Assembly (NCBI GenBank): GCA_003576845.1
Contig: QEVJ01000027.1
Coordinates: 1 to 49,429 of the forward strand
Reading direction: 5' to 3'
Length of the DNA stretch: 49,429 nucleotides
DNA from: Planctomycetota bacterium
GTDB taxonomy: Bacteria; Planctomycetota; Planctomycetia; Pirellulales; PLA5
Shown: positions 11,501 through 46,324 of the stretch, piece by piece
Position numbering within the stretch: the stretch's first letter is position 1
How the letters are laid out: the number at the start of each line of letters is the position of its first letter
Program-made: the position numbers and the translations under genes
Notes under the pieces: model-generated
Seen by the model: only the letters and a program-made list of their open reading frames with translations
Databases searched by the model: none
What the model was told of the DNA's origin: nothing

Positions 11501-14500
11501 CGTGGCGACGAGGCGCAGCACTTTGTTCGTCGGGTTGGTCGGATCGGCGACGACGACGCTCTTACCGTGGCTGCCGTGCGTGCCGCCCAAGCGCCACGCC
11601 GCGGGAAGCGCGCCGATCGAGTCGCCTTGGAACGTGCCGTTCTGAATCAACTGGATCGGTGTCGCCGACGACGGGTTCTGCGTCACGCGGATGTCGTCGA
11701 GCAGCACCTCGCCCGCGTCGAGCAGGCCGAGGAGAAACTCCTGCCATTGTCCGTCCGGACCCACGCTGCTGGACGTCGCCACGCCGCGATAGGTTACGGT
11801 CTGCCACGCGGTCTGGTCGCTCTCGTCGCTTGCCGCCCATGCCTGGGCCTGCGCATTATCCGCGTCGGGATCGCGCAGTTCGAGGCTCGAACCGCCGCCG
11901 TCGGCGAATTCGTGCCAGCGGCCGGAATCGAAGAACTCGACCACGTCCGCCGGATTATCGAGCGCGTCGCGCAGCTCCAGCTTCTCGCCGCCGCGTTGGA
12001 TTTCGCCCGCGAACGGACCGAGAATGCGGATGCTTGGATAGTCCGCGGCGAGCGTGACCACGTCGCGGGCGACGACGAGGTACTCGCCCGGAGCAATCGT
12101 CGTTCCCATGGGGAACTCGTAATCGACGCCGTTGATCTCCCACTCGGTCAGGTCGACGGTCGTCTGGCTGCGATTGTACAGCTCGATCCACTGCTGTTCG
12201 TTGTCGCGATACGGCTGGCCGGGGATGAAGGGCGTCAGCTCTTCGCGGAGCAACATTTCCAACCCGAACACCGTGTCGCTGCTCGTGGCGTTGATCTGAT
12301 GCACTTCGACGGAGAGGACATTCGTGCCGACGTTCAGGATCGCGGGATTGAGCGCGATGTACCCGCTGTAGTTGGCGTTGTCGATCGAAGTCGACGCGAA
12401 CGTGCCGCTCGTTACGGCTCCGGCGGGCATCCCGAACCGCGTGGACCCGCCGCCGATGTCCGCCAGCTCGACGCCGTTGAGATAGAAGACGGCGCCGTCG
12501 TCGATGACGTGCCGGAATACCAATTCGGATCCGGCCGGCGCGCCCGCGAACGTGAACTCCTTCTGATAATAGTACGTCGTCACCGCCTGCGAGTAGTCGC
12601 CCCACGTCGTGCGCAACGGTTCCGGCAAGGCGCTGCTTTCGACGCCGATCAACGTCTGCCCGGTCTGCCAGTCGCCGCCGACGGGCTGATTCGTCTGATA
12701 CCACGTCGCGCCGAGATTCGCGCCGGAGCGGTTGAATTTCCACGTGTCGGCAAACGAAACGAGCGACGTGGTCTGATAGGTCGCCGGCATATCCGGCGTG
12801 CCCAGGAGACCGCGCGGATTGTACATGATCTCGTTAATGACGATCTCGTCGTGGAGCGCGAAACTGTTCGCCGCGCCCGGCGTGGGGACGTCCGGCGTGA
12901 GCCAGCGGTCGCCGAAATCGGGATGGCGGCCTTGCAATCGATTCCGCATGAGCACCGCGTCCGCCACCGCGTTGCCGCCGGGACGGAACAGGAACAACTT
13001 GTCGTTGTCGACGACGGGGAAGCCCAGCGTCGCCGCGTCGACGATGATCCTCTCGCCTGGTTGCACGAATTGCGACGGGAAGACGTAGGGGGCCGTCATT
13101 TCGTTCGACGAACGGATCTCGTAACCGCCGACGTCGATCGCTTGCGAATGAACGTTGGTCAGCTCGATCCAGAACGGAGCGAGCGCGGAGGCGACTTCGT
13201 CGAACTTCAGCGAACTCGGCTGCCGCGGGTCGACGGGCACGACGACCGCCCTTAGCGACGCCGCCATCGCCATGTCGTCGCTGTCGAGCGACGCCTGGTG
13301 TACTTCGACGGCCAGCACGTTGCGGCCGGCGACCAGCGCCGACGACGGAATGCTCACGGGCAAACCGGCCGCGGGCGAGCCGATTTCGGTCGACGCCAGC
13401 GTTCCGTAGCCGATCGCACCGGCGGGCATGTTGCGGCGGTAGACCTCGGCGCCGTTGAGGTAGTACACGGCGCCGTCATCGGCGAGCGGCGTCAGTTCCA
13501 AGAGCGAGACTTGTGCGGCGGCCGCGTCGAGATCGAACTCGTGGCGGAAATAGTGCGTCGTCGGGCCGAGGTCGACGATCGTGTTGCCGGTTACGGTCGT
13601 GGCCAGCACGTCCATCCGGAAGGCAAACCCGCCCGCGTTTCCGCTCTCCGCGCTCGTGTTGCGCACGGCCAAGATGATCTCGTTCGTGCCGACGTTCCAG
13701 TTCGTGAACGAGGCGGCGCTGGAATCGAACTTGGTCACGCTCACCGCGCCGTTTTCCTCGATCGTAATCGACGGATAGGGCGACAAGAACGGATCGCCGG
13801 AGAACGTGACTTCCGTGGCGAGCAACTGGCCGTTGAGATAGACCTGCGCCCCGTTGTCGACGGCCATGCGGATATTCGCGCTCACCGCGCCGAACTCGGG
13901 TAACTCGAACGTCGTGCGATAGTAGCGCACGTTGTTCTGGGCGACGATTCCTTGCACGCCCATCGAATTGGCCGCGGTGTTGATCGACGGAACGACGAGC
14001 GGGCCGGTCGCGGTGGGAACGAGCGTGAACGTCGAGGCGGCCGGCGGAGGCGGATTGCCGCTCGGGTCCCAGTTTCCGGCCGGGCCGCCGCTGATCGTCT
14101 CCGTGCTCAGCCGCCACGTGGCCGTGCTCGACCCGACGGTTATCGGCAACGAAACGGAGATCGGATTCGCAGCGCCGGTGGCCAAGGCTTGAATCGACGC
14201 TTGCGGCAGTGCGATGTTCCACATTGCCACGTCGTCGACGTTGCCGACGAAGCCCTCCGTGGTGTTCGTATGCCGCGTGCCGATGTTCATCAGCCCGATC
14301 GGGCTGATTGCTCGAGAAGCCGCGTATACCGGTTGGCCATTGGCATAGATGGTGAGCATCGACCCATTGGCGACGTACGCCATGTGAATCCATTGATTGG
14401 GCGTCGTCGTGAAGGTCGTCTCGGTCCAGCCGTTGGAGTGAAACTTGATGCTCGAATTGCCGCCGGCCGCGGCGTTGTTGCTGACGGCGGTCTCGAACGA

Positions 14501-15589
14501 ATCGTTCGCGCGGCTGGTGATGCGGTTGTGGCCGATGTTGCCGGAACCGGAGTTTCCCGTGCCCGTGGTTTGGCCGGGATCCTTGATCCAATAGGCGAGG
14601 GTGAAGACGCTCGAGTTGAGGCTGGCGTGGGGCGCGATCGCGACGCGGCTCGCGCCGCCGGAAAAACTCATCGACTTTCCGCTGCCGATGGCGGCCGGCA
14701 CGCTCGTGTCGTAGGTCGCGCCGACGATCGTGCCGTCGTTGACGCCGGTCGCGGAATGGTCGTCCACGTTGTCGTCGAAGTTCCAATACGCGACGAGCGA
14801 CGCAGGCGGCGTGGTCGGCGGCGTGCCGATATTGCCGGCCACGATCGGCGCCTCGCCGCTGGACCAGCTTGCATCGTCGAAGTTGCTTTGCGACCAACTC
14901 GTGCCGAGGTCTGTGCCGGTATCGTCGTACCGCCACGTGGCGTTTTGCTGCACCAGCGTTTGCGACTGCGGCGACAGGTCGACGACGGGAAAGTTGGCGG
15001 CGCCGGGCGTTCCGCCGATTTCGAGACTGGCGGACCAGTTGTCGACGTCGCCGCTACCGGCGTTGGGAGTTCGCTTGGCGAGACTGACGCCCGATCCATC
15101 CGCGGCGAGGGGCCAAGGCTGGTCGTCGGAATAGTCGACCTCGTCCATGACGCGGTCGCTGTTGTTGACGAGCGCAAGCGTTTCGCCGCCATTCGAAAGG
15201 TTGCCCACGTAGGGCCCGAGCGCGCCGGCGAAACCGGCGCTCGCCAGCGCAGCGGGGTCGGCGGCGACGACGAGATAGCCGAACCGCGGGATCGTCGTGC
15301 CGGCGGGGAAGCGATAACTAACGCCCCGGTCGAATCCCCAACCGGAGATGTCCATGTCGACGCCCTGCTGGTTGTGCAGTTCGATGAATTCGAGCGATTC
15401 GTCGCTGCCCGCGGGGTTGTACATGATCTCGTTGAGAACGACGGTGCTGTCGAGCACGTAGCGGTTTTCGAGCGGCTCGATCGTTCGCACGCGGCGGCCG
15501 CGATGCGCGTTCTGCGACGCGCGGCGTGCGGCGGCGCGGAGGTAACGATTGCCGTTGCCGAATGAACCCAGCGAGCGTTTGCCAGACAT
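8585..15589 (-). CDS. Giant LTD / LamG / CotH-kinase / dockerin surface protein (paralog of 32530-40398)
   Basis: 2334 residues. ATG 15589 is preceded by GAGGAG at about 10 bases. Domains in order: Arg-rich N-terminus with IEPLENRYVL (37-46, LEPR-XLL type, no classical signal peptide); lamin-tail domain (about 48-200); galactose-binding-like jelly roll beginning about 205 (TWRYDDTGTDLG), interrupted by LamG (about 265-475) and a second jelly roll, resuming near 680; second LTD (about 790-910); jelly roll (about 950-1117); third LTD (about 1130-1250); carbohydrate-binding-like and Ig-like segments (about 1290-1535); CotH kinase-like region (about 1553-1900, with GIRLKGS and LFPHDMDFSF); fourth LTD (about 2017-2190); dockerin type I with two Ca-binding loops (DVDGDGRVD, DLNGDGAVN, about 2197-2247); and a basic C-terminal tail ending RAQRRIARR. 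It probably acts at the cell surface; the CotH region suggests protein phosphorylation, which is inferred. Confidence 0.9.
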   Translation of the reverse strand: MSGKRSLGSFGNGNRYLRAAARRASQNAHRGRRVRTIEPLENRYVLDSTVVLNEIMYNPAGSDESLEFIELHNQQGVDMDISGWGFDRGVSYRFPAGTTIPRFGYLVVAADPAALASAGFAGALGPYVGNLSNGGETLALVNNSDRVMDEVDYSDDQPWPLAADGSGVSLAKRTPNAGSGDVDNWSASLEIGGTPGAANFPVVDLSPQSQTLVQQNATWRYDDTGTDLGTSWSQSNFDDASWSSGEAPIVAGNIGTPPTTPPASLVAYWNFDDNVDDHSATGVNDGTIVGATYDTSVPAAIGSGKSMSFSGGASRVAIAPHASLNSSVFTLAYWIKDPGQTTGTGNSGSGNIGHNRITSRANDSFETAVSNNAAAGGNSSIKFHSNGWTETTFTTTPNQWIHMAYVANGSMLTIYANGQPVYAASRAISPIGLMNIGTRHTNTTEGFVGNVDDVAMWNIALPQASIQALATGAANPISVSLPITVGSSTATWRLSTETISGGPAGNWDPSGNPPPPAASTFTLVPTATGPLVVPSINTAANSMGVQGIVAQNNVRYYRTTFELPEFGAVSANIRMAVDNGAQVYLNGQLLATEVTFSGDPFLSPYPSITIEENGAVSVTKFDSSAASFTNWNVGTNEIILAVRNTSAESGNAGGFAFRMDVLATTVTGNTIVDLGPTTHYFRHEFDLDAAAAQVSLLELTPLADDGAVYYLNGAEVYRRNMPAGAIGYGTLASTEIGSPAAGLPVSIPSSALVAGRNVLAVEVHQASLDSDDMAMAASLRAVVVPVDPRQPSSLKFDEVASALAPFWIELTNVHSQAIDVGGYEIRSSNEMTAPYVFPSQFVQPGERIIVDAATLGFPVVDNDKLFLFRPGGNAVADAVLMRNRLQGRHPDFGDRWLTPDVPTPGAANSFALHDEIVINEIMYNPRGLLGTPDMPATYQTTSLVSFADTWKFNRSGANLGATWYQTNQPVGGDWQTGQTLIGVESSALPEPLRTTWGDYSQAVTTYYYQKEFTFAGAPAGSELVFRHVIDDGAVFYLNGVELADIGGGSTRFGMPAGAVTSGTFASTSIDNANYSGYIALNPAILNVGTNVLSVEVHQINATSSDTVFGLEMLLREELTPFIPGQPYRDNEQQWIELYNRSQTTVDLTEWEINGVDYEFPMGTTIAPGEYLVVARDVVTLAADYPSIRILGPFAGEIQRGGEKLELRDALDNPADVVEFFDSGRWHEFADGGGSSLELRDPDADNAQAQAWAASDESDQTAWQTVTYRGVATSSSVGPDGQWQEFLLGLLDAGEVLLDDIRVTQNPSSATPIQLIQNGTFQGDSIGALPAAWRLGGTHGSHGKSVVVADPTNPTNKVLRLVATSASEHMFNHIETTLKNGATIATITNGVEYEISYRVKHITGDRQVNTRLYFNRLPKTTIIDAPQLGGTPGAQNSRYETNIGPTHSGLMHSPTVPAAGQTVSVSVDAADPDGVASAVLWYSVNSGTWQSVAMQIGASGRLSGEIPGQAAGAVVQFYVESTDGLGATATFPALGRESRALYQVEDGRAQLSGATALHNFRIVMTPTDANLLHAPTNALSNDRIGATIIYDEGEVFYDAGIRLKGSERGRRQDVRISFNVEFQPDQLFRGVHDNVAVDRSGAGDQFSQKEIIVEHIVTRAGDIPHEYSDLIRAITPRTTHTGTAMLMMARYGDVFLDSQFENGGDGTLFEYELIYYPAGTTDGNPESPKLPYPNADGVVGVSITNLGDDKERYRWPFLIKNNRDADDYSRLIDMAKTFALSGASYSNQINSVIDVDQWLRAFAVGILTGIGDSYFTGAQHNLEVYVRPEDDRVLLFPHDMDFSFSAGATSSLTPNGDLNKMLSIPGNGHHYYGHVQDIVTTTFNATYMTPWINHYDALLPSESFTSFISYISSRASSALSQINAAIPPVSFAITTNGGADHTVNAPTVTLQGTGWVNVRNIRLDGDDTNLPVTWVNNNTWQLTLPIDFGPNPIALEAFDFQGNQIATDSITVTSTISVRPLQDFLRVSELMYHPADETAEELAAGFNDADEFEFIEFQNTSTTETLDLSGVRLIAGVQFDFATASVATLAPGERLLLVKNEAAFAFRYGAGLNVAGSYGGQLDNAGETLTIVDGNNAIIQSFTYDDNGPDWHPTTDGDGYSLVIVDVLGETSQWSVGSAWRPSGQIGGSPGTEDQTGVEGDVDGDGRVDLVDLGILQRSLGTASGATPEMGDLNGDGAVNGADAAILARNFGRGSAPPSPPAAASVVITGTTRRASGPASLGKETLQATARRRVAASARLRLDTAHVDRALGELTGDSSSTTDTPLRAQRRIARR

Positions 15590-24879: not shown

Positions 24880-24932
24880 CGATCCGCGACGTCCGGTTGC
24901 GTTTTTGTTTCGTCGCGAAATACGTCGATCGC

Positions 24933-24959
24933 GGTGGGCCTCACTTCGTTCGGCCCACC
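24933..24959. repeat. Small inverted repeat between FecR-LamG and PSD1 genes
   Basis: Arms 24933-24940 (ggtgggcc) and 24952-24959 (ggcccacc) are perfectly complementary with an 11-base spacer containing a further ttcgttcg. It lies about 50 bases past the FecR-LamG stop and before the PSD1 start. There is no T-run, so it is not a convincing terminator. It looks like another dispersed planctomycete intergenic repeat. Confidence 0.55.
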
Positions 24960-24985
24960 CTACGGAATATGTGAGATTGAGCCGG

Positions 24986-32529: not shown

Positions 32530-35500
32530 ATGAAGCCGCGGCGCAAGCAACGCCATTGGACGCTGGAAACGCTCGAAACCCGGTGCGTGCTCGACAGCAC
32601 GGTGGTGCTGAACGAGATCGCGTACAACCCGCCGGGGAGCGGCGAGTCGCTCGAATGGATCGAGCTTCACAATCAGATGGCCGTCAACGTCGACATCTCG
32701 AAGTGGCAGTTGTCGGACGGCGTTTCGTTTACGTTTCCCGCCGGAACGGTCGTGCCGGGCGGCGGGTATCTCGTGGTTGCCGCGAATCCGGATGCGCTCG
32801 CGACGGCCGGTATTTTCGCAGGCGCGCTGGGTCCGTGGACCGGCGCGCTGGCCAACGGCGGCGAACAGATCGAGCTGCGCAACAACAGCGATCGCGTGAT
32901 GGACGCGGTCGAGTACGGCGACAACGGCGAGTGGTCGCCGGCGGCCGATGGCGGCGGAGTGACGCTGGCGAAGATCGATCCGCTCTCGGCGAGCGGTCCA
33001 GCGGCGAACTGGCGCGTGAGCCGCGAAGTCGGCGGCACACCGGGCGCGGAGAACTTTCCACCGCCGGGCGGAATCGTGCTGCCGGCCGGCGTCGTTTCAT
33101 ATTGGAGCTTCGACGAGGTCGCCGGTCCCGTGCTCGACCGCGGCGATAGTAACCACGGCGCGCTGGCGGCGGGCGCGACGCGAACGGCAGGACTCGTCGG
33201 CAGCGGCGCAGTGACGTTTGCCGATTCGAGCGCGGCCTACGTGAACGTCGGTCCTGGCACCAGCAACAACTTCTCCGTTTCCACGGGCGTGACCGTCGAA
33301 GCGGTGATCGAGTCGAACTGGGACGGCGTGGGGACGGCGACGGTTTTCCGCAAGGGCGAGAACGTCGGCGCGCCGCTGTGGTCGTATTGGTCGTTCGACG
33401 AATCGAACGGCACGCCGGCCAATGCGAACGTGCTCGACGCGATCGGGGGCAATCACGGCACGCTCGCGGGGACGGCGGTTCACACGACGGGCATTCGCGG
33501 CTTGGGGGCCGGGCGATTCAACAACGTGGCGGCCGAAGGCGTGGGGCTGGGGTCCGGGGCGATGAACGCCACGGCGGGCATCACGATCGCCGCGTGGATC
33601 AAGCCGGAGTGGAACGGGGCCACGTTCAACGCCGACACGATTTACTACAAGAACGACACGACAAACCGGATTTCGCTGGAGTTCCAGCGCGATTCGTCGA
33701 ACAGTCTGGCCGATCCGCCGGTGGCCGGCAGCGCGCCGCAGGTGTTGTCGTTCGCGCTCAACACGAGCGGCTCGGTGCGAGAACTCGATATGCCGCTGGG
33801 CGTTAATCTCGCGGCGCTGCCGAACGGGACGGCGAACGCGGGCACGATCTATCTCACGGCGCCCGGCGGCGCGCTGGGACCGAACGACGTCGTGCTGCGG
33901 GACGGGAGCGCGCATCACGTGGCCGCGACTTACGACGTCGCGTCCGGCGAAAAGGCGATCTGGATCGACGGCGTCAAACGGTGGTTCCGGGCGTATGCGG
34001 CGGGCACGGCGATGGCCGTCGGCGGCAGCGCCGGGGCCGCAATCGGCAATTCGCAGCCGGGCCTGTCGCGGGCATTCACCGGCGTGATCGACGAAGTGGC
34101 GGTCTGGGGCGACGCGCTGTCGGCGGCGCAGATCGCGGCGCTCGTTTCCTCGGCGTCGCCGGTGACGATTCCGTCGGGCGGCGTGAACAACAGCCTCGCG
34201 CTCGAGTTCCAGAACGACGGGAACAACGCGGCGGCGAATCCGCCGGTCGCGGCGGGACCCGTGTTGTCGTTCGGGCTCAACGTCGGCGGCGTGTATCAGG
34301 AACTCGACATGCCGCTCGACGGCGTGGGCACGCGGCCGACGCTCGCGGAGCTTCAGGACGGCAATCCGCACCACATCGCGGCCACGTACAACAGCGCGAC
34401 GGGCGCGAAGTCGATCTGGATCGACGGCGTGGAACGGTTCACGGTGAATCTTGCGCCGGGCGCAACGATCAACAGCGCCGGCGACGGGCTGGCGACGATC
34501 GGGAACCGCGGGGCGCTGGGCGATTCGCCGCTGGTCGGGACGATCGACGAAGTGGCGTTCTGGAACAAGGCCCTGCCGAGCACCGAAGTACAACAACACT
34601 CGGCGAGCGTGCTCGCGGGAAGCAACTATTTCGCCGAACTCAACGCCGGCGCCGCGCCGCTGGCATTTAATGAGACCGCGCCGGGCGTGGCGGGCTTTTG
34701 GGCTGAATTGGTCAATTTTGGCTCGTCGCCGGTGCAGCTTGGAGGGCACGTGATCGTCGGGTCGGAGTCGCCGGCACATCGTTACGTGCTGCCGGCGGGT
34801 ACGCTCGCGGCGGGGGCGTTCTTGACGATTAGCGAGGCACAACTCGGCTTTACGCCGGTCGATACGGAGCGGTTGTTTCTGTACAACCCGGCGGAGAATC
34901 TCGTGCTCGACGCGGTGGCGGTCGACGACGAGCTGCGCGGCCGAGAGCCGCAGGCGACCGGACCGTGGTTGTTCCCGGACGTCGCGACGCCGGGTGCGGC
35001 GAACAGTTTTGCGCTCAACGACGGCGTAGTGATCAACGAGATCATGTACCACGCGCAGCCGACGTATGCCCAGGAAGGTCAGCAGCAAACGTCGCAGCCC
35101 ATTTCGCTCGGCGGGACGTGGCAATACGAGCAGTCGGACACGGACCTCGGCGCGACGAATTGGAAGGACGTGGGCTTCACGCCCACCGGTTGGTCGACGG
35201 GTCAGGCGAGCTTCGGCGCGAGCACGGGCGGAGCGAGCTATCAGAGCATCGTCGCGGCCGACGCGCCGCTTGCCTATTGGCGGCTCGGCGACGCGGGGCC
35301 GAGCGTCGCGGATTCGTCTGGCAACGGCCGCAATGGCACGGCCGACGCGGGCGTGTTGTTCGGGCAGACCAGCTTGCTTTCGGACCTGACGAACAACGCG
35401 GTCAACACGGTCGGCACGGCGCGGATTACCGTGCCGGGGTTCGAGAAGTTTCCGGCCGGCTCGACGGGGTACTCGGTCGAATACTGGATCGAGGTGCTCT

Positions 35501-38500
35501 CGCCGCCGACGAGTTTCAGCAATATCGTGGGCGACGGCGAGTCGGGCGGCGATTTCTACTTGATGAACTACCTGACGAGCGGCGGGCAAATCCGACCGCA
35601 CTTCAACGGGGCCGGCACCGTTTCGACCGACAGCAACGCGACGCTGCAAGTCGGCCAGACGTATCACGTCGTGACCACCTGGGATCGCACGACCGGCATC
35701 GGCTCGATTTACATCAACGGCGCGCTCGACAAGGCGATCAGCGTCGGTACGGGCGCCCCGGTCAACTCCAATAACCCAATCTACATTGGCCGCGACAATC
35801 GCGAGCCGGGGAGCAGCTTTCTGCTCGACGAAGTGGCGATCTACAACCGGCCGCTGAACCAAACGGAGGTTTCCGAGCACTTCAACGCGGGCGGCGGCGT
35901 CGCGTTCGCCACGACGCTCGATCTCGGGCCGACGACGTATTACTTCCGCAAGGAGTTCAACTTCGCGGGCAATCCGGCCGCGACCGAGCTGTCGCTCCGC
36001 ACGTATATCGACGACGGCGCGGTGATCTATCTCAACGGGCAGGAGATTCATCGCCAGAACATGCCGGCCGGCGCGATCGGGCACGAGACGTTTGCCGTCA
36101 CGGCCGTCAGTTCGCCGTCGCTGGGAACGACGATCGCCGTTCCCGCGGGAATTCTGCAAAGCGGGACGAACGTGCTGGCCGTTGAAGTGCATCAGGTCGA
36201 CAGCGGCGACAACGACGTGGCGTTCGACGCGCTCTTGACGGCGATGGAGGATATTGCCTCGTCGACGGACTTCATCGAGTCGGACGAGGAGTGGATCGAG
36301 CTTTACAACCGGTCGGCGGCAGAGGTCGATCTGTCAGGTTGGCATATCGAAGACGCGATCAACTACACTTTCCCGGCGGGGACGACGATCGTGCCGGGCG
36401 AATATCTGGTCCTGGCTCGCGATCCGGTCGCGCTGGCGGCGGCACATCCGGGCATTCGGATCGTCGGCGGTTATTCGGGACAACTGTCGAATGGCGGCGA
36501 GCGGATTACGCTCAAGGACGCAAGCAAGAACCCGGCGGACGTGGTGACGTATGCCGACGAGGGGCGCTGGCCGATTCATGCCGACGGCGGCGGTGCGAGC
36601 TTGGAACTGCGCGATCCGCACGCGGACAATTCGCTCGCCGAAGCTTGGGCGGCGAGCGACGAGCGCGGCAAGTCCGACTGGCGAACGTACACGTATCGGG
36701 GCGTGGCGGCGGTTCCGCCGAATTCGCCGAATCCGACGACGTACAACGAGTTCGTGCTCACGCTGCTCGACGCGGGCGAAGTGCTGCTCGACGACATCAG
36801 CGTTCGCGAAAACCCGAACGGGGCGAACACGCAGTTCATCCAGAACGGCTCGTTCCAGGGCGACGCGCTCGGCGCGGCGCCGGCGACGTGGCGGATCGCG
36901 GGCACGCATCGCGGAACGGTGATCGCCGATCCCGATAACGGGGCGAACAAGGTCTTACGGCTCGTGTCGACGGGGCAAGGTGAGCATCTGGCGAATCACG
37001 CCGAGACGACGCTCAAGGCCGGGGCGACGTTCGAGACGGTTTTGCTCGGCACGGAATACGAGATTTCGTTCAAGGCGAAGTGGATCGCCGGTTCGCCGCA
37101 ACTCAACTCGCGGCTGTTCTTCAATCTGCTGCCGAAGACGACGATACTCGACACTCCGGCATCGGGCGGAACGCCGGGCGCGCGGAACTCGACGCTCGCC
37201 GGTGCGACGGAAGCGGCGGCGAACGTCGGGCCGACGTATGCGAATCTGGCGGCGACGCCGGTCGTGCCCGCGGCGAACGAGCCGGTTGTGGTGTCGGTCG
37301 AAGCGGCCGATCCCGACGGCGTGCAGTCGATGACGCTGCGGTACTCGGTCAACGGCGGCGCGCTACAGAGCGTGGCGATGGCGCTCTCCGGCGGCGCGTA
37401 TCGCGGCGCGATTCCGGGTCAAGCGGCCAATGCCGTCGTGCAGTTTTTCGTCGAGGGGCGGGATGCGCTCAATGCGCTCTCGTCGTTTCCCGCGGCGGGG
37501 GCGGCGTCGCGGGCGCTGTACAAGGTCGGCACGACGGCGACTTCGGCGAGCTTGCACAACTTGCAAATCGTCGTCACGGCGGCCGACGCGGCGGTTCTCG
37601 GCGCGTCGACGAACTTGATGAGCAACCAGCCGGTCGGAGCGACGGTCGTATACGAAGGCAAGGCGTACTACGACGTGGGCGTGCGGCTTAAGGGGAGCGA
37701 ACACGGGCGGCCGGACCTTAATCGCCGCGGGTTTTTCCTCGTTTTTCCGCCGGACAACTTGTTCCGCGGCGTACACGGCTCCGTCGGCATCGACCGTTCC
37801 GGCGGTTGGCGCTATGGGCGGCAGAACGGACAGGAAGAGATCGTCATCCACCACTTCATCAACGCGGCCGGCGGCGTGCCCGGCTCGTACAACGATCTCG
37901 TGAACGTCGAAGCGCCGGGCGTGACGACTGGGACGGCGATCTTGCAGATGGGGCGGTTCACCAACACGTTCCTCGATTCTCAGTACGAAAACGGCAGCGA
38001 CGGCACGCGGTGGGAATACGAACTCATCTACACGATGGGCACGAGCGCGGGCGTGGAAAGTCCGAAGGTGGCGGCGGAAGGGCCGTCGGTGTTCGGCACG
38101 CCGATTCGCGACAAGGGCGAAGACAAGGAATCGTATCGCAACAACTTCCTGATCAAAAACAACACGGACCGCGACGATTTCGAGCCGATCGACGTGCTGG
38201 CCGAGGCGTTCGGGCAGCCGGCGGGAAGCGCGGCCTATCACGCGGCGGCGCAGCAGGCGATCGACGTCGACCAGTGGCTGCGGGCGTTTGCGGCCGTGGC
38301 GCTCGCCGCGGTGAGCGACAGCTACTTCAACAACTCGAACGCCCACAACGCGACGTTCTACGAGCGGCCGAGCGACGGCAAGGTGCTGCTCTTCCCGCAG
38401 GACATGGATTTTGCGTTCGTCAACGGAGCGACGAGCTCGCTGGTGGCGAACAGCGATTTGGCGAACCTGCTCACGCTGCCCCAGAACAATCACTTCTATC

Positions 38501-40398
38501 TCGGCCACGTTCAGGACATCGTGACGACGAGCTTCAACGCGGCGTACATGGGGACGTGGGTCAATCACTACAACAGCCTGTTGCCGGGGCAGAACATCAC
38601 GGACCTGACGAGCTTCATCAACACGCGGGCGAACTTCGCGCTATCGCAGATGCCGGCGCAGGTCGCGTTTAGCGTGGCGGCGAATCCGCCCGCGCCGGTG
38701 ACGACGACGCTGGTCGGCGAGTTCGCGGCGGCGACGGCGTTCGTGCCGAGCGGCGACATCGGGACGGCGTGGACCGGCGTGGGATTCGACGACGCGAGCT
38801 GGACGAGCGGCGACACGGGCGTGGGGTACGAGACGAGCCCGGCCGATTATCAGAATCTGCTCGGTCTCAACGTCGGTTCGATGCTCAATACGAACGGTTC
38901 GGCTTATGTCCGCGTGCCGTTCGACTTTTCCGGAAGCGGGGCGGATTTCGACAATCTCAAGCTGCGGATGCGGTACGACGACGGGTTCGTGGCGTACTTG
39001 AACGGGGTGCGCGTCGCGGCGGCGAATGCGCCGGCGACGCTGGCGTGGAACTCGCTGTCTACGCAGTCGCACGACGACGTGAACGCGGTCGTGCGGCAGG
39101 ATTTCGACATCTCGGCGTTCAAGGACCTTCTCGTCGACGGCGAGAACGTGCTCGCGTTCCAGGTGCTCAACCAGGCGCTCAACAGCAGCGACTTGCTGTT
39201 GCTGCCGGAATTGGTCGGCGAGACGATTCCGGACACGGGCGGGGAAGTCGTCGTGCCCGGGCCGACGGCGACGATCGGCGGGCAAGGTTGGGTGAACGTC
39301 CGCGAGATTCGGTTCGCGGGCGATTCCGCGCCGGTGAATACGACGTGGCTTTCGACGACGGCCTGGCAGGCGACGATCCCCGTGCAGCCGGGCACGCACG
39401 ACTACACGTTCGAGGCTTATGACTTCCAGGGGAACTTCATCGGTTCCGACACGATCGCGATTACGAGCACCGAGCCGCAGCCGCTGCTCAACCACCTGCG
39501 CATCGGCGAGCTCATGTATCATCCGGCCGATCCGTCGACGGCCGAGATCGCGGCGGGTTTCAACGACGCCGACGATTTCGAGTTTGTCGAACTGGTCAAC
39601 ACGAGCACGACCGAAACGCTGCAACTCGACGGCGTGACGATTTCGGCGGGCATTTCCTTTACGTTCGGCAATGTGTCGCTGCCGCCGGGCGGGCGCGTGG
39701 TGGTGGTCGAGGACCTGGCGGCGTTTGCCCAGCGGTATGGCGACGCGATTGTGCCCGTCGGGCAATACACGGGGCGGCTCAACAACGCGGGCGAGCAACT
39801 GCGGCTGGCCGATGCGAACGGCAGCACGATTTTGGACTTCGTGTACGACGACACGGGCACCGGCTGGCATCCGACGACGGACGGCCAGGGGTATTCGCTG
39901 GTGATCGTGGACGAGAGCGGGCCGGCTGCGAGTTGGAACGACGGCGCGGCGTGGCGGCCGAGTTTCGCGATCGGCGGCTCGCCGGGGTTGCCGGATGAGC
40001 CTGTGGGTTTGCTGGGCGACTTCGACGGCGACGGGCGGATCGGTCTGGCGGATCTGGCGATCCTGCAAGCGCACTTGGGGACGGCCAGCGGGGCGACGTC
40101 GCTTACGGGCGATATGAACGGCGACGGGGCGGTGAATCGGCTGGACGCGGCGGAGTTTGCGCGGCGGTTTGGGCAGGGCGGGGCGATACCTTCGGCGCCG
40201 GCGGCGGTTGTGGCCCGACAGAGGGCGGTGTCGGCGAACACGGCGCCATCGTTAAACGCCCAGCGGCGGCGGGTCGACCGGCAAGCGGCAGCGGTGGATC
40301 GGGCGATCGACTCGCTTTCGGCGGACTACGCGGGATCGTCGGCGGCCGGGGGATTGAGAAGGGCAATGAGCGCGGGTAAGAGGCGTATTGCAAGATGA
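32530..40398 (+). CDS. Giant LTD / LamG / CotH-kinase / dockerin surface protein (paralog of 8585-15589)
   Basis: 2622 residues from ATG 32530 (gggaccgcc upstream). Order: Arg/Lys-rich N-terminus with LETLETRCVL (12-21), no classical signal peptide; LTD (about 24-180); LamG first half (about 178-282), a whole second LamG inserted (283-553), LamG second half (554-700); LTD-like (about 709-830); jelly roll (from about 854) interrupted by another LamG (about 903-1124), resuming with TTYYFRKEF; LTD (about 1255-1370); binding-like and Ig-like segments (to about 1665); CotH kinase-like region (about 1670-2040; VRLKGSEHGRP, LFPQDMDFAF); inserted jelly roll (about 2057-2236); LTD (about 2320-2490); dockerin type I (DFDGDGRIG, DMNGDGAVN, about 2496-2545); tail ending KRRIAR. 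Extra modules relative to the paralog explain most of its added length. Confidence 0.9.
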   Translation: MKPRRKQRHWTLETLETRCVLDSTVVLNEIAYNPPGSGESLEWIELHNQMAVNVDISKWQLSDGVSFTFPAGTVVPGGGYLVVAANPDALATAGIFAGALGPWTGALANGGEQIELRNNSDRVMDAVEYGDNGEWSPAADGGGVTLAKIDPLSASGPAANWRVSREVGGTPGAENFPPPGGIVLPAGVVSYWSFDEVAGPVLDRGDSNHGALAAGATRTAGLVGSGAVTFADSSAAYVNVGPGTSNNFSVSTGVTVEAVIESNWDGVGTATVFRKGENVGAPLWSYWSFDESNGTPANANVLDAIGGNHGTLAGTAVHTTGIRGLGAGRFNNVAAEGVGLGSGAMNATAGITIAAWIKPEWNGATFNADTIYYKNDTTNRISLEFQRDSSNSLADPPVAGSAPQVLSFALNTSGSVRELDMPLGVNLAALPNGTANAGTIYLTAPGGALGPNDVVLRDGSAHHVAATYDVASGEKAIWIDGVKRWFRAYAAGTAMAVGGSAGAAIGNSQPGLSRAFTGVIDEVAVWGDALSAAQIAALVSSASPVTIPSGGVNNSLALEFQNDGNNAAANPPVAAGPVLSFGLNVGGVYQELDMPLDGVGTRPTLAELQDGNPHHIAATYNSATGAKSIWIDGVERFTVNLAPGATINSAGDGLATIGNRGALGDSPLVGTIDEVAFWNKALPSTEVQQHSASVLAGSNYFAELNAGAAPLAFNETAPGVAGFWAELVNFGSSPVQLGGHVIVGSESPAHRYVLPAGTLAAGAFLTISEAQLGFTPVDTERLFLYNPAENLVLDAVAVDDELRGREPQATGPWLFPDVATPGAANSFALNDGVVINEIMYHAQPTYAQEGQQQTSQPISLGGTWQYEQSDTDLGATNWKDVGFTPTGWSTGQASFGASTGGASYQSIVAADAPLAYWRLGDAGPSVADSSGNGRNGTADAGVLFGQTSLLSDLTNNAVNTVGTARITVPGFEKFPAGSTGYSVEYWIEVLSPPTSFSNIVGDGESGGDFYLMNYLTSGGQIRPHFNGAGTVSTDSNATLQVGQTYHVVTTWDRTTGIGSIYINGALDKAISVGTGAPVNSNNPIYIGRDNREPGSSFLLDEVAIYNRPLNQTEVSEHFNAGGGVAFATTLDLGPTTYYFRKEFNFAGNPAATELSLRTYIDDGAVIYLNGQEIHRQNMPAGAIGHETFAVTAVSSPSLGTTIAVPAGILQSGTNVLAVEVHQVDSGDNDVAFDALLTAMEDIASSTDFIESDEEWIELYNRSAAEVDLSGWHIEDAINYTFPAGTTIVPGEYLVLARDPVALAAAHPGIRIVGGYSGQLSNGGERITLKDASKNPADVVTYADEGRWPIHADGGGASLELRDPHADNSLAEAWAASDERGKSDWRTYTYRGVAAVPPNSPNPTTYNEFVLTLLDAGEVLLDDISVRENPNGANTQFIQNGSFQGDALGAAPATWRIAGTHRGTVIADPDNGANKVLRLVSTGQGEHLANHAETTLKAGATFETVLLGTEYEISFKAKWIAGSPQLNSRLFFNLLPKTTILDTPASGGTPGARNSTLAGATEAAANVGPTYANLAATPVVPAANEPVVVSVEAADPDGVQSMTLRYSVNGGALQSVAMALSGGAYRGAIPGQAANAVVQFFVEGRDALNALSSFPAAGAASRALYKVGTTATSASLHNLQIVVTAADAAVLGASTNLMSNQPVGATVVYEGKAYYDVGVRLKGSEHGRPDLNRRGFFLVFPPDNLFRGVHGSVGIDRSGGWRYGRQNGQEEIVIHHFINAAGGVPGSYNDLVNVEAPGVTTGTAILQMGRFTNTFLDSQYENGSDGTRWEYELIYTMGTSAGVESPKVAAEGPSVFGTPIRDKGEDKESYRNNFLIKNNTDRDDFEPIDVLAEAFGQPAGSAAYHAAAQQAIDVDQWLRAFAAVALAAVSDSYFNNSNAHNATFYERPSDGKVLLFPQDMDFAFVNGATSSLVANSDLANLLTLPQNNHFYLGHVQDIVTTSFNAAYMGTWVNHYNSLLPGQNITDLTSFINTRANFALSQMPAQVAFSVAANPPAPVTTTLVGEFAAATAFVPSGDIGTAWTGVGFDDASWTSGDTGVGYETSPADYQNLLGLNVGSMLNTNGSAYVRVPFDFSGSGADFDNLKLRMRYDDGFVAYLNGVRVAAANAPATLAWNSLSTQSHDDVNAVVRQDFDISAFKDLLVDGENVLAFQVLNQALNSSDLLLLPELVGETIPDTGGEVVVPGPTATIGGQGWVNVREIRFAGDSAPVNTTWLSTTAWQATIPVQPGTHDYTFEAYDFQGNFIGSDTIAITSTEPQPLLNHLRIGELMYHPADPSTAEIAAGFNDADDFEFVELVNTSTTETLQLDGVTISAGISFTFGNVSLPPGGRVVVVEDLAAFAQRYGDAIVPVGQYTGRLNNAGEQLRLADANGSTILDFVYDDTGTGWHPTTDGQGYSLVIVDESGPAASWNDGAAWRPSFAIGGSPGLPDEPVGLLGDFDGDGRIGLADLAILQAHLGTASGATSLTGDMNGDGAVNRLDAAEFARRFGQGGAIPSAPAAVVARQRAVSANTAPSLNAQRRRVDRQAAAVDRAIDSLSADYAGSSAAGGLRRAMSAGKRRIAR

Positions 40399-40489
40399 AG
40401 CGCGCGACCACGGATTGCACGGATGACCACGGATGAATGCGTAGGCGGTTCGTCCTTTGCGACGCCTGGTATCATGCGTGCTGCTCTCG

Positions 40490-40670
40490 CTGCACGTCCT
40501 CGGTTCGTGGGAGGGTTCTTTGCCAATCGCGAAAGGGCGAAAGGACGAAATCGCGAAATACAGATGGCGACCGAGGGCTAATAGCCTGTCCTAATGCGCC
40601 AAGTCTTCGGTTGGTGGGAAAGTTCTTTGCCAATCGCGAAAGCGCGAAAGGGTGAAAGCGCGAAACACAG
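40490..40670. repeat. Direct duplication of a cgcgaaa-rich unit
   Basis: Copies at about 40490-40560 and 40603-40670 share ttctttgccaatcgcgaaag and a preceding 'cttcggtt.gtggga' segment, followed by runs of cgaaa-type 7-8-mers. Related cgcgaaa stretches recur at 40971-41008 and, inverted, at 41063-41106. No coding content is seen. It looks like a dispersed repeat that has expanded locally. Confidence 0.65.
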
Positions 40671-40923
40671 TGAGGGATGCGCTTCTTTGCGGATTTTGTC
40701 TGGAAAGTGGGCCACTTGTCTGGTATAAATAATGGCTCGCGGCAGGGGTGGTGGCGGTTGGCCGACGGCGGGTTTTCGGGGCGACAGGTTGGACCGGCCG
40801 AGCGAGGGAGTTTTTGAACGTTAACCCCCGATTTTCCCGGGATTTTGTTCAATAACCTCGCGTGAAGATGCGTTGATTGCGTGGTTTGGGTCGGATTGAA
40901 CTCGCCGAGCGGCGGGTAGGGCG

Positions 40924-40942
40924 CTGCTGGACAAGCCAGCAG
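40924..40942. repeat. Small hairpin repeat with acaag loop (second copy)
   Basis: Arms 40924-40930 (ctgctgg) and 40936-40942 (ccagcag) surround the loop acaag. This is the same design as 19016-19040, with the variable base of the arm changed on both sides (ggtgg/gctgg), a compensatory pattern suggesting that the folded form matters. Confidence 0.6.
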
Positions 40943-41374
40943 TGGCAGTCGTGCGCTGAGTCCCGGGCCATCGCGAAACCGCGAAAGTGCGAAATCGCGA
41001 AATCCAGGAAGCGCCGGCGCATTTCCAGCGGGAGCCGGACGCGCCGCTAAAATGCTGCTTCGCCGCGATCTTTTCGCCTTTTCGCTATTTCGCGCTTTCG
41101 CGATGAAAAGCCCCGCCTCCCGCGCCCCGCGTCTACTTCCGTCGGGTGGGCGCCGCCCAAGTCCATCTTTTCGCGTGGAACACATTTGCTTGATTTTGCG
41201 GGTTTTATCGGTTACGCTTAAGTCTATTCGCATCAAGGCATTTCTTGCGTTGATTGGCCGCGCGCACCCCATGTGCGTTTTGTCGGGTCGCTTGCTGGCA
41301 GTCGGCGGTGGGCACGCCGCGCTCGGCGACATGGGTGGGTTCTTTTCGCATTTCTCCAAAAATTGCGGTTGACC

Positions 41375-44300
41375 ATGCAATTCTCTTATCGGTCGAAGCA
41401 ACAGCCGGCGCGCCGCGCGCCGCAACGTCGTTTTGCGCGCTCGCCGCGCACTGTGCGCCGCGCGCTCGGGATGGAGCCGCTCGAATCGCGGGCCTTGCTC
41501 GCCGTGGTGAATCTCGTCACGGAGACGACGCCGTCGAAGGGCATCGTCGTCACGCAAGCGATCTACGACGACGTCGGCACCGACTGGAACGGCAGCGATC
41601 CGTCGTTCGACGACACGACGTGGGTCGGGTCGGCGGTCGGCGGACCGAACGGGATCGGCGCGCCGATTACGACGGGCGGCAAGTACGCGAATTTCGCGAG
41701 CATCAGTTCGGCGGCGATGGCCTTCGCGACGAACACGTCGTTCCTGCGCATTCCATTCCAGGTGTCCGGCGCCTCGGCGTTTTCGAAGCTGACGCTGAAT
41801 ATGCGGTTCGACGACGGGTTCATTGCGTATCTCAACGGCCAGGAAGTGGCGCGGCAGAACGTTGCTCCCGACTATCCGGCGTGGAACGCACCTGCGACGG
41901 CGTTCATCAGCCCCGCCGACGCGAGCGCGACGTTTACGACGTTCGACGTATCGAGCAGCGTGGGCGCGCTCCAGGACGGGACGAACATTCTGGCGATTCG
42001 CGGTTTCGATCGTCCCCAAGTCGGCAATTTCCCGTCGAGCCAGGATTTCTTGGTTCAGGCGACGCTGGTGGGCGAAAAGCCCGATGCGGTGATCACCGCG
42101 AACGACGATGCCGTTTCGTATCGGACGGACGCGGCCGACCCGGTGATCAACGTCCTGGCGAACGACACGGCGGGCAGCTATCCGATCGACCCGGCCTCGG
42201 TCCAGATCGTTCAACAGCCGACGGGCGGCACGGTGACGGTCAACGCCAATGGCACGATTAGGTACAGCGAGAACACGAATCCGCAGTTCGCGGGCGTGGA
42301 TACGTTTACGTACCGCGTGCGCGATACGAATCCGGCGCCGACGCCGGGCGGGACGACGACGCCCACGCCCGTTGTTGGCGCCAACGCAGCGCATCGCCGG
42401 CTCGTTCCCACCGCTGCCCAGGCTGCGACTTGGACGGGTTCGGGAACGTTCGACGACAGCACGTGGCTCGTGGGCCAGGGTGGCGTGGGCTACGACACGG
42501 ATGTGGCGGTCGACTACGAGCCGTATATTCAAAACGGGCTGGTGACGATGCAGAACGTCAACGCTTCCGTATACGCGCGATACCCGTTCACGCTGGCGGA
42601 TCCCACGAAGGTCGTTGGGCTTCGGCTGCAAATGCGGTATGAAGACGGATTCGTGGCGTGGATCAACGGCGTCGAGGTGGCGCGCGGCGGCGCGCCGACG
42701 CCGGCATTGTGGAACTCGCTGGCGAACGGAGGCGCGCGTAACGAGGCCATGGCCATCGCGCAAACCGAGTTTGTCGTCGATTTGGCTGCGGCAGGTTTGG
42801 TTCTCAAGGCCGGCCCTGGGGCGAATATCCTGGCAATTCAAGGTCTCAACGACACGTTGGGAAGTTCCGACTTGCTGATTCAGCCGGAATTGATCGCCGA
42901 CGTTGGGTCGACGGGGCTGTGGTCGAACGAGGCGACGGTGACGGTGAGCGTGACGGGTCCGGGGCCGGTGGCGGCGGACGATTTTCCGGAGACGATCAAC
43001 GTAATCGAGCAGCAGGACGGCGGCGTGACGGTGGACGTGCTCGCCAACGACACGCCGGGGTTTAGCGGCGAACCGATTCGGCCGGGGACGGTGGAAGTTA
43101 CCGTGCCGCCGGCGAATGGATCGGTGATCGTCGATGCGGCGACGGGCGCGATCAACTATCAGCCGGACACGGGTTTCTGGGGCGACGACGTGTTCACGTA
43201 CACGGTGCGCGACGCGGACATGGTTGGCGGCTCAGAGACGAGGGATTTGATTCCCGCGGGAGATATGTGGAAGTATCTCGATAACGGGACGGACCAGGGC
43301 ACCGCCTGGACGGGCACATCGTTCAACGACGCGTCTTGGGCTACCGGGCGTGCGGAGCTTGGATACGGCGACGGGGATGAAGCGACGATCGTCGCTTGCG
43401 TCACCGCCGGAACGCCTTGTGCCGGCAACCCGCCGAACAAATTCATAACGACCTATTTTCGCCGCACGTTCGACCTGGCGGACGCGAGCGCCGTGCAGTC
43501 GCTGGACGTGCGTTTGGAATATGACGATGGCGGCATTGTTTATATTAACGGCACCGAAGTCGCCCGCGTGAATATGCCGGCGGGGGCGCCAACCTACACG
43601 ACGCCCGCCACCGGCGCCGCCGACTACGCGCGTACTCCGACGTCGATCGCCATGCTGACGGGCGCTCAACTAGCGCCGCTACGCGACGGCACGAACGTCG
43701 TGGCCGTGGAAATACACCAGGGTAACGGCACGAGCAGCGACATGTCGTTCGATTTCCAACTCGTGGCGAATCTCTCGACGCCAACTGGCAACGTCTCCAA
43801 CCCCGCCCAGGTTCATATTCACGTCAACGCTCCGCCGGTGGCTGGGAACGACACGATTCAGGTCGGGCCATTTGGGACAATGGGCTCGGTTCCGAGTTCG
43901 ATCACGTTCGATCCTTACGTGAACGACAGCGACCCGGACAACTCGCCGGGACAGTCGCCGGGTCAGGTGGGGATCAACCGGACGCAGACGCTCATTACGC
44001 AGCAACCGCCCCCCGGCGACGGCCTGGTCTCGGTCAATCCGACGACGGGGCTGATTACGTACACGGCGCAAGCGGGCATGAGGAATCCGGAGACGGTGAC
44101 GTTCCGGTATCAAGTGTTCGACTATCAGAACGCGCACTCGAATGAAGCGACGGTGACGGTGAACCTGGTGGTGACGCCGCCGACGGCGGTCGACGACGCG
44201 GTTGCCACGCCGGAAGGGCAGACGGTGGTGATCAACGTGCTGGCGAACGACATCACGCGGGATTTGCTGCGGTCCGACGGGAGCATCGTGCCGACGCAGC

Positions 44301-46324
44301 CCGCCAATGGGACGGTGACGCTCAACACGGCGAACAACACGCTCGTGTACACGCCGAACCCGGGCTTCCGCGATCAGTTCGACACGTTCACGTACACGGT
44401 CTCCGACCTGGCCGGCAACCGCTCCGCGCCGGCGACGGTGACGGTGGATGTGTTTTCGCTGGCGCGGACGGCCGGGGACGGATTCTCGATTCCGACCGGT
44501 CAGGACTCGGTGACGATTCCGATCGCCGATATGCTGGTGAACGACTATTGGCCGACCGCTTCGTTCCAGCCGGTGGTGGTGATCGTTCCCAATAGCTGGA
44601 CGAACGGGTTGCAGCCGGTGATCAACGTGGTCGGCGGCGTGCAGCAATCGATCACGTTTACCAAGGCGACGGGCGCCGCGGGTGTCGGCGGGTTCAGCTA
44701 TTACCTGGCCGACGGCGTGCCCAATCCGACGCGGCCGAACTCGAACACGTCGCGGGTGGACGTCGCGCTTACGACGGTGACGGTCAGCGGCAAGGTGTAC
44801 GTCGACGTCAATCAGAACGGAACGTATGAATTCGGCGAGCGTCTGATACCCGATGCGACGATCGTGCTCCGACGGGCGGGCAACCCGCAATTCGTGCGGA
44901 CGACGATGACGAATTCGTTCGGGGAATACTCGTTCGCGTCGACGGCGGACGGCGTTTTGCCGCCGGACACGTACACGATCACGCAGATTCAGCCCGCGTT
45001 GTATCTGGACTTCACGACGGGTGCGGTGAATTCGTATACGGTGGCGCTGTCGGCGCCGGAGAACCCCGGTTTCGACTTCCGCGAGTGGACCGTCAACCCG
45101 CAGTTCTTCGTGGCGCTGGTCAGTTACGGCGGCGGGTTTTTGGCTTCGCAGCAACCGGTGTCGCTGTCGGCCGGGTCGATCGTCGTGCCGTACGACGTCG
45201 GCTGGAACGGCACGTTCGCGGCGAAGGCGACGTACAACCCGGCGCTCGGCGACGTGTCGGTGAAGCTGTACAACTCGGGCGGAGCGCTGCTCGCGAATTC
45301 GGCGACGAGCGGCGGTTCGACGCCGGGGAACTCGGTGATCAACTACTCGGCCAGCCCGTCGCAGAAGCTGGTGCTGGTCGTTTCGGGGACGAACCCGAAC
45401 GTGTTGGTGGACGCGCCGAGCCTGGCGACGACGTCGGGGGACACGACGCCGCCGTTCGTGTACAGCACGGCGCTTGCGAGCACGCGGTGGTCGAGCGGGT
45501 TCGCGGAGAATCTCGCCGAGCACTTCATGGGGACCGGCGGCTACAACGTGTCGGCGGGCGAGACGCTGCCGTGGCAGAACCTGGACCGGATCACGATGCG
45601 GTTCACCGAGCCGGTCGCGGTCACGCAGGGCGATCTGCGGCTGTGGGGCGTCGACGTGGCCGACTATCCGCAGACGGTCGGCGTGCAGAGCTTTTCCTAC
45701 GACCCGCTGTCGTTCACGGCGACGTGGACGCTCAGCGCGCCGATCGCGGCGGATCAGCTTCGCGTCGGATTGTCGGACGCCGTGCGCGACGTGTGGGGGA
45801 ACCGCGTCGGCGGCACGGGCTATTCGATGCTGTTCAATGTGCTGCCGGGAGCGATTCCGGGGACGGGTTCGACGGCGGGCGACGCGATCGCCGCGATGAT
45901 GTCGCGGCAGTTCGCGAGCGTCGGGCAGGCGCGGTACTCGCCGTTCTACGATCTCGACGGGAGCGGGACGATCAACTTCGTGGACGCGATCGCGCTGCGG
46001 AACGCGCTCGGTTCGCAGCTCCCGCTGGGGACGCCGGGCGGCGGTTCGACGAGCACGCCTTCGCCGGAAGCGCCGGCGGCGGTGGTCGTGTCGGCGGGGC
46101 GCGAGAGCGACGCCGTGCGGCGGCGCGACGCGGATACGCCGCTGGCCGCGAGCCGGGCGGTGGTGCGAGCGACGCGGGCCGCGGCGGTCGATGCCGTTGT
46201 CGATGCGGCCGTGAGCGCGGATGCGGGGGCGGGCGGTGGGGCGAGTTCGCTCAGTGCGCTGCGAGCGCGACGGGCGGCGCGATCGGCGGAGCGGGTGCTG
46301 GCGGGGCTGGATGGGTCGCTGTAG
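41375..46324 (+). CDS. LEPR-XLL multi-domain cadherin/Ig-like protein with interrupted repeats and dockerin-like end
   Basis: 1649 residues from ATG 41375; the frame is open to 41273, but the Arg-rich N-terminus and MEPLESRALL (33-42, LEPR-XLL type) fit this start. The ribosome site is weak. Order: jelly roll 1 (about 45-240); cadherin/Ig-like repeat 1 (about 240-320 and 515-528) split by jelly roll 2 (about 339-510); repeat 2 (about 530-620 and 803-818) split by jelly roll 3 (about 624-802); uninterrupted repeats 3 and 4 (about 820-1030) and a divergent fifth (to about 1140); SdrD B-like/Cna-B domain (about 1140-1235, VYVDVNQNGTYEFGERLIPD); two further beta-rich segments; a dockerin-like end with one good Ca loop (DLDGSGTIN, about 1525); and an Ala/Arg-rich tail. 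Probably a cell-surface adhesin or wall protein. Confidence 0.88.
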   Translation: MQFSYRSKQQPARRAPQRRFARSPRTVRRALGMEPLESRALLAVVNLVTETTPSKGIVVTQAIYDDVGTDWNGSDPSFDDTTWVGSAVGGPNGIGAPITTGGKYANFASISSAAMAFATNTSFLRIPFQVSGASAFSKLTLNMRFDDGFIAYLNGQEVARQNVAPDYPAWNAPATAFISPADASATFTTFDVSSSVGALQDGTNILAIRGFDRPQVGNFPSSQDFLVQATLVGEKPDAVITANDDAVSYRTDAADPVINVLANDTAGSYPIDPASVQIVQQPTGGTVTVNANGTIRYSENTNPQFAGVDTFTYRVRDTNPAPTPGGTTTPTPVVGANAAHRRLVPTAAQAATWTGSGTFDDSTWLVGQGGVGYDTDVAVDYEPYIQNGLVTMQNVNASVYARYPFTLADPTKVVGLRLQMRYEDGFVAWINGVEVARGGAPTPALWNSLANGGARNEAMAIAQTEFVVDLAAAGLVLKAGPGANILAIQGLNDTLGSSDLLIQPELIADVGSTGLWSNEATVTVSVTGPGPVAADDFPETINVIEQQDGGVTVDVLANDTPGFSGEPIRPGTVEVTVPPANGSVIVDAATGAINYQPDTGFWGDDVFTYTVRDADMVGGSETRDLIPAGDMWKYLDNGTDQGTAWTGTSFNDASWATGRAELGYGDGDEATIVACVTAGTPCAGNPPNKFITTYFRRTFDLADASAVQSLDVRLEYDDGGIVYINGTEVARVNMPAGAPTYTTPATGAADYARTPTSIAMLTGAQLAPLRDGTNVVAVEIHQGNGTSSDMSFDFQLVANLSTPTGNVSNPAQVHIHVNAPPVAGNDTIQVGPFGTMGSVPSSITFDPYVNDSDPDNSPGQSPGQVGINRTQTLITQQPPPGDGLVSVNPTTGLITYTAQAGMRNPETVTFRYQVFDYQNAHSNEATVTVNLVVTPPTAVDDAVATPEGQTVVINVLANDITRDLLRSDGSIVPTQPANGTVTLNTANNTLVYTPNPGFRDQFDTFTYTVSDLAGNRSAPATVTVDVFSLARTAGDGFSIPTGQDSVTIPIADMLVNDYWPTASFQPVVVIVPNSWTNGLQPVINVVGGVQQSITFTKATGAAGVGGFSYYLADGVPNPTRPNSNTSRVDVALTTVTVSGKVYVDVNQNGTYEFGERLIPDATIVLRRAGNPQFVRTTMTNSFGEYSFASTADGVLPPDTYTITQIQPALYLDFTTGAVNSYTVALSAPENPGFDFREWTVNPQFFVALVSYGGGFLASQQPVSLSAGSIVVPYDVGWNGTFAAKATYNPALGDVSVKLYNSGGALLANSATSGGSTPGNSVINYSASPSQKLVLVVSGTNPNVLVDAPSLATTSGDTTPPFVYSTALASTRWSSGFAENLAEHFMGTGGYNVSAGETLPWQNLDRITMRFTEPVAVTQGDLRLWGVDVADYPQTVGVQSFSYDPLSFTATWTLSAPIAADQLRVGLSDAVRDVWGNRVGGTGYSMLFNVLPGAIPGTGSTAGDAIAAMMSRQFASVGQARYSPFYDLDGSGTINFVDAIALRNALGSQLPLGTPGGGSTSTPSPEAPAAVVVSAGRESDAVRRRDADTPLAASRAVVRATRAAAVDAVVDAAVSADAGAGGGASSLSALRARRAARSAERVLAGLDGSL

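Follow-up and report, generated by a model that had tools for sequence, protein, structure and literature searches.

Do whole folded modules sit inside other modules, instead of beside them, in a set of giant surface proteins, and how would such inserted modules be gained and replaced? The question is raised by a stretch of DNA of 49,429 nucleotides (the window), which is contig C209 of a 7.05-Mb genome. Search neighbours of this genome are planctomycetes, and the nearest one, G001, belongs to the same genus. Profiles were built from the modules of the window and refined on homologs, and split hosts show up in them as complementary halves on the two sides of a complete guest. Profile splits of this kind disclosed eight domain-in-domain insertions in four proteins: three in P0001, two in P0004, two in P0002 and one, less certain, in P0003.

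32530..40398, forward strand: P0001, 2622 aa, giant protein with LTD, LamG, JR, CotH and dockerin
8585..15589, reverse strand: P0004, 2334 aa, paralog of P0001
41273..46324, forward strand: P0002, cadherin-like (Big_9) protein with JR guests
about 1-2603, reverse strand: P0003, peptidase-like, truncated by the window edge

The first-pass annotation had proposed at least six nestings, a count that holds, as P0001, P0004 and P0002 together have seven, besides the one in the peptidase. They had been placed at 32530-46324, where five of them lie; the others are at 8585-15589 and 1-2603. Among suspected nestings, eight were retained. Two others, the CBM-like module that follows the third lamin-tail domain (LTD3) and the jelly roll (JR) behind CotH, have complete profiles on either side and are ordinary neighbours.

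P0001 and P0004 are comprised of lamin-tail domains (LTD), LamG, a CBM-like module, an FN/Ig-like domain, CotH, Ig and dockerin. The Lamin tail domain profile (PF00932) scores 186 and 168.7 bits, above its curated cut-off of 34.3. The CotH kinase family (PF08757, cut-off 23.8) is exceeded in P0004 (41.7 bits), and P0001 stays just under it (22.2 bits). In P0002, the bacterial cadherin-like Big_9 profile (PF17963) reaches 149.2 bits, exceeding the cut-off of 23.6. Modules of P0001, all on the forward strand, are arranged as follows.

33094..33357: host LamG, N-terminal part (residues 193-280, profile 2-93)
33376..34155: guest, complete LamG inside LamG (residues 287-546, profile 1-237)
34186..34608: host LamG, C-terminal part (residues 557-697, profile 96-236)
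35026..35049: first strand of LTD3, VVINEIMY
35101..35241: JR in LTD3, N-terminal part (residues 862-908, profile 4-50)
35269..35892: guest, complete LamG in JR (residues 918-1125)
35923..36249: JR in LTD3, C-terminal part (residues 1136-1244, profile 61-171)
36271..36690: rest of host LTD3 (residues 1252-1391, profile 14-153)
36661..37149: CBM-like module after LTD3, between complete profiles, no clear nesting
37534..38685: CotH-like domain
38707..39225: JR between CotH and Ig, between complete profiles, absent from P0004
40012..40167: dockerin type I

The second and third insertions form a three-level nest, LamG in JR in LTD3, in which the JR with its LamG splits the strand VVINEIMY from the remaining LTD3. 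The CBM-like module comes after LTD3 in nearly all homologs. For the LamG inside LamG, an uninterrupted relative of the host is present in the window at 24064-24786, and the host is closest to whole LamGs of neighbouring window genes (the FecR-LamG protein and the LamG protein upstream of P0001). Origin of this nest as a self-copy was rejected, as the host halves are nearer to these uninterrupted LamGs than to the guest. A LamG in LamG split 94/96, as in P0001, was also observed in a MAG that is labelled as Verrucomicrobiota, Pedosphaera parvula (L072:973-2424, forward strand); the two may reflect either transfer or deep ancestry.

The segment 22266-32314 (forward strand) includes a sigma-70-like regulator and the FecR-LamG protein upstream of the PSCyt gene, and a further LamG protein immediately before P0001. 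The PSCyt gene (24869-28555, forward strand) has the cytochrome-type architecture PSCyt1-PSCyt2-PSD1 (DUF1549/DUF1553), in which two F5/8C-like domains separate PSCyt2 from PSD1, and is followed by a DUF1501 gene. A link between sensing and display is possible for the regulator and FecR-LamG neighbourhood of P0001.

In the paralog P0004, one JR loop accommodates two guests, and LTD3 is interrupted by a JR that is itself whole (all on the reverse strand).

14822..14962: host JR1, N-terminal part (residues 211-257, profile 1-47)
14174..14797: guest LamG in JR1 (residues 266-473)
13637..14008: second guest, another JR, in the same JR1 loop (residues 529-652)
13244..13597: host JR1, C-terminal part (residues 666-783, profile 55-170)
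12821..12844: first strand of LTD3
12242..12769: guest JR in LTD3, itself uninterrupted
11798..12208: rest of LTD3

Orthologs of P0001 and P0004 in G001 show these insertions too, in LTD3 and in the JR loop.

In P0002, two of the cadherin-like domains are interrupted by a JR just before their last strand, and two more offer whole hosts for reference (all on the forward strand).

42095..42331: host cadherin-like domain 1, to strand F (profile 8-86)
42368..42904: guest JR1 in cadherin 1, complete JR
42923..42952: last strand of host cadherin 1, SNEATVTVSV
42962..43219: host cadherin-like domain 2, to strand F (profile 6-86)
43244..43771: guest JR2 in cadherin 2, complete JR
43796..43825: last strand of host cadherin 2, SNPAQVHIHV
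43820..44452: cadherin-like domains 3 and 4, uninterrupted (reference hosts)

Whole and split cadherin-like domains can be aligned column for column, the last strand of the whole ones matching the residues that follow the JR. The G001 ortholog has both JRs at the two corresponding places. Tandem duplication of a single cadherin unit already carrying its JR is disfavoured as the source of the two insertions, because JR1 and JR2 belong to different JR clades.

The further case that had been proposed in the peptidase was followed by Pfam match and ortholog comparison.

834..998, reverse strand: E1_FCCH-like module in the P0003 peptidase

The module is located between two putative metal-binding motifs, HASHEAGMDIDI and HGGHFHV, and the G001 ortholog matches across it. 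It also occurs elsewhere, with 71% identity in G020. Nesting in P0003 is weaker than in the other cases, because no uninterrupted peptidase homolog was found in 40 genomes; the insertion is nevertheless likely to be real, judging from the motif order and the ortholog.

Structures were predicted with AlphaFold2. In the model of P0001 826-1385, JR and LTD3 have pLDDT mostly above 90, and the separated first strand of LTD3 is formed (E8-14, pLDDT about 90). The LamG of this model has pLDDT mostly of 35-80, and its region 80-287 still matches ConA-like lectin folds with Z about 15. In the model of P0002 550-866, the strand following guest JR2 is formed (E296-302), and the JR resembles the GH2 sugar-binding domain 6d50, the N-terminal domain of a beta-glucuronidase (Z 13.8, 141 residues, rmsd 3.3). 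Combining profile continuity and DSSP assignments, we infer that host strands pair across their guests. Model-wide fold searches mainly returned LamG-like lectin domains from the binding regions of clostridial neurotoxins and from trypanosomal sialidases; a toxin reading of the neurotoxin matches was rejected, as only the ConA-like fold is shared.

Uninterrupted hosts were searched for in homolog alignments and were found. In homologs from several phyla, LTD3 is whole in 50 (profile start 2) and interrupted by a JR in 49 (profile start mostly 12-16), at the same point. In other loci of the C209 genome as well, the residues of a host continue on the far side of its guest, e.g. TPLDVLAA, then the JR, then GGVLLNDLDVDGD. 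Being common to two species, and partly to different phyla, the insertions are old.

The JR profile has 131 matches in the C209 genome. Among 119 genomes of the phylum, 40 possess the JR, mostly in one to seven copies, and three, this one included, in at least 30. No Pfam model matches the module well, no GH2 sugar-binding model matches it at E<=1, and the best PDB sequence match is a sialate esterase (E 0.0066).

Entry of guests through loops, as suggested in the first-pass annotation, is supported by split points that cluster in four loops genome-wide. In the examined loci of the C209 genome, breakpoints fall at JR 44-63 (n=13), JR 109-124 (n=3), cadherin 22-34 (n=6) and cadherin 86-90 (n=9, each then followed by the last-strand motif). 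Of the guest types named there, LamG and the jelly roll do recur, and the list has to be extended with F5/8C, PA14 and DUF4082-like guests in related proteins; the main JR loop holds LamG, F5/8C, PA14 and DUF4082-like guests, in addition to some without a model. Guests of the second JR loop (profile about 109-124) were observed in L221:393-7124 and L223:2-4540 (both reverse strand), L221 having two successive JRs with a complete LamG in the second loop of each. Cadherin-like domains split near profile 24, with JR and/or LamG guests, were seen in L154:743-4993 and L157:1-10203 (both reverse strand) and in L226:2864-6961 (forward strand). Guests often exceed their hosts in length: LamG of about 210 aa resides in JR of 170, JR with LamG (about 390 aa) in LTD of 150, and JR of 180 aa in a cadherin domain of 95 aa.

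Alternatively, the modules could simply follow one another, with split matches produced artificially by diverged tandem domains or by misassembly. Two suspected nestings do agree with this explanation: complete domains flank both the CBM-like module that follows LTD3 and the JR that precedes Ig. For the main cases it is contradicted by complementary profile halves that flank a complete unrelated domain at the same point in many homologs and independent assemblies, and by hosts continuous across the guest at residue level. Collapse of repeats during assembly is unlikely, because the two copies of the JR1 tract are not identical, 10-20% of their bases being different. We consider this alternative very improbable.

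The descent of host and guest was compared in the cadherin-like family. In the host tree, P0002 pairs with its G001 ortholog (100/99). The JR1 guest tree groups by genome, with three paralogs of the own genome together (98/97) and two G001 paralogs together (99/97). AU tests reject the swapped topologies for the host (p 3e-55), for JR1 (p 1e-7) and for JR2 (p 6e-12). P0002 and its paralog C128 agree in JR1 at about 90% of amino acids and 82% of nucleotides, and in the flanking cadherin halves at about 50% and 58%, respectively. At third bases of four-fold degenerate codons, JR1 of this pair agrees at 0.59 vs 0.37 expected by chance (0/500 shuffles), and the host flanks at 0.41 vs 0.43. Because synonymous sites of the guest exceed chance and those of the flanks do not, these data show, at the level of sequence, that at least one guest, JR1, passed by copying from one paralog to another while the split host around it remained intact. 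The synonymous signal is clear only for this pair, the remaining guest comparisons being saturated. Protein trees suggest that JR2 was likewise copied, with descent of the host retained.

One could object that guests within a genome resemble each other by convergence, under selection for one shared ligand, and not by copying of DNA. Guests are indeed domains of a ligand-binding type, and saturation at synonymous sites in most guest comparisons leaves room for it. Four-fold bases of JR1 in the P0002-C128 pair, far above the chance set by codon usage while host flanks stay at chance, speak against it, so that protein-level selection alone would not explain the likeness of this pair. Convergence is therefore unlikely for JR1, an argument that does not extend to JR0 and JR2, and improbable overall.

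Turnover of guests was also followed in LTD3 of the CotH family. With 88 proteins in the CotH tree, the state of the LTD3 insertion requires 16 changes (shuffled mean 28), gain and loss being inseparable. The tree of the LTD3 host itself requires 17, vs 16 on the CotH tree, and swapping of whole LTD3 cassettes was rejected as the only cause of the patchy distribution. A single origin of the JRs in LTD3 is rejected as well (AU p 0.0066). The LamG-carrying JR of P0001 has as its sister (97/90) a JR from a C78-lineage paralog, whose corresponding loop is occupied by an F5/8C-like guest. P0004 and its ortholog have a JR that groups as sister with the C78-lineage JR (98/97). CotH rejects the P0004/C78 topology of the guest (p 7e-5), and no such rejection comes from the LTD3 host beside the guest (p 0.3); for this reason, a larger cassette of host and guest together may have moved in the CotH family. 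Copying of JR guests in LTD3 of this family, with the host keeping its own descent, is suggested by the protein trees.

Ordinary domain insertion would explain the nests as rare events followed by vertical inheritance, the recurrent loops reflecting structural tolerance for beta-sandwich guests with close ends. Of multidomain proteins, 20% have a domain insertion, which is favoured when the termini lie close together (PMC13114784); vertical inheritance of the P0001 and P0004 guests is seen in the G001 orthologs. Short direct or inverted repeats, which had been suggested as a check for shared boundary sequences, do not exceed those at random place pairs at nine guest boundaries, in agreement with this explanation. 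Vertical inheritance is at odds with the strong conflict between guest and host trees in the cadherin-like family, with a guest tract synonymously younger than its flanks, and with the LTD3 slot, for which about 16 gains or losses on the CotH tree and more than one JR origin are required. Taken together, we regard it as rather unlikely. The recombination route proposed in the first-pass annotation is partly supported: the data speak for exchange of JR1 between existing slots and, by tree conflict, suggest the same for JR2 and the CotH family, the support concerning exchange and not the first insertion of a guest. No dedicated exchange enzyme was found.

The preferred reading, to which we assign a probability of roughly 60%, is that these are secreted giant proteins in which split Ig-like and jelly-roll scaffolds hold lectin-type guests, that guests are exchanged, and that the proteins function in adhesion. 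Complete lectin-type domains would interrupt the scaffold domains (lamin-tail, cadherin-like Big_9, JR and LamG) at fixed loops, and each interrupted scaffold would act as a socket for its guest. Homologous recombination (gene conversion) among the many JR copies of the genome would move guests between existing sockets. Guests would bind glycans or other surface ligands, and the split scaffolds would display these putative ligand-binding modules for adhesion or attachment, as in RTX adhesins. A wider form of this proposal is tentative: the JR family, with more than 100 copies, may serve genome-wide both as plug and as socket, unrelated lectin-type guests being exchanged at a few loops by recombination confined to the guest, which would provide combinatorial surface binding on an unchanged scaffold.

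In PMC12077191 and PMC10865825, the RTX adhesins AhLap, FrhA and MpIBP are described as having an Ig-like scaffold split by a ligand-binding domain (CBM, PA14 and others), which is projected from the fibre, and as including nested repeats, with vWFA in RTX and an insert in vWFA. Profile splits reveal the same principle here, a scaffold domain interrupted by a domain of ligand-binding type, and by this analogy the proteins are most likely adhesin-like, displaying ligand-binding modules from split scaffolds. The presence of CotH might indicate a modifying and not an adhesive role. Unlike in RTX adhesins, RTX repeats were not found in P0001, P0002 and P0004 (Pfam, E<=1), and a dockerin is located close to the C-terminal end of P0001 and P0004. 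The role of host is taken by lamin-tail, cadherin-like, JR and LamG domains. Slots recur in many paralogs with differing guests, and one guest was copied from one paralog to another; the available text of the two papers does not mention guest exchange.

The topology is identical to that of general domain insertion (A1-B-A2, and A1-B1-C-B2-A2 when nested), in which the smaller domain is the inserted one in 77% of insertions (PMC13114784), whereas guests studied here are often larger than hosts. The JR guest has its fold in common with the GH2 sugar-binding domain, a galactose-binding-like jelly roll (Z 13.8); it differs in having no Pfam match at E<=1 and in not being attached to a glycosidase. 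Gene conversion, for example in H. pylori bab genes and at M. genitalium MgPa, is reported to homogenise or exchange surface modules between paralogs of one genome in a similar way, but the unit exchanged here is a domain nested in a folded host whose halves stayed in place. Papers linking CotH kinase with a lamin tail were not found in the literature searched. Frequent domain insertion and split-domain display are therefore already known; what differs is the number of paralogs sharing slots, guests exceeding hosts, unrelated guests in one slot, and copying of the guest only.

Domain insertion is usually seen as a rare event followed by vertical descent. In the proteins studied here, a given loop of one domain family is found interrupted and whole in close relatives, and occupied by unrelated guest folds in paralogs, so that gain and replacement of inserted domains become testable. 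The results put a name to a heavily expanded jelly-roll domain for which there is no model and offer insertion points for domain engineering. They point to modular diversification of giant, poorly understood planctomycete surface proteins and suggest a socket-and-plug route to the diversity of such proteins.
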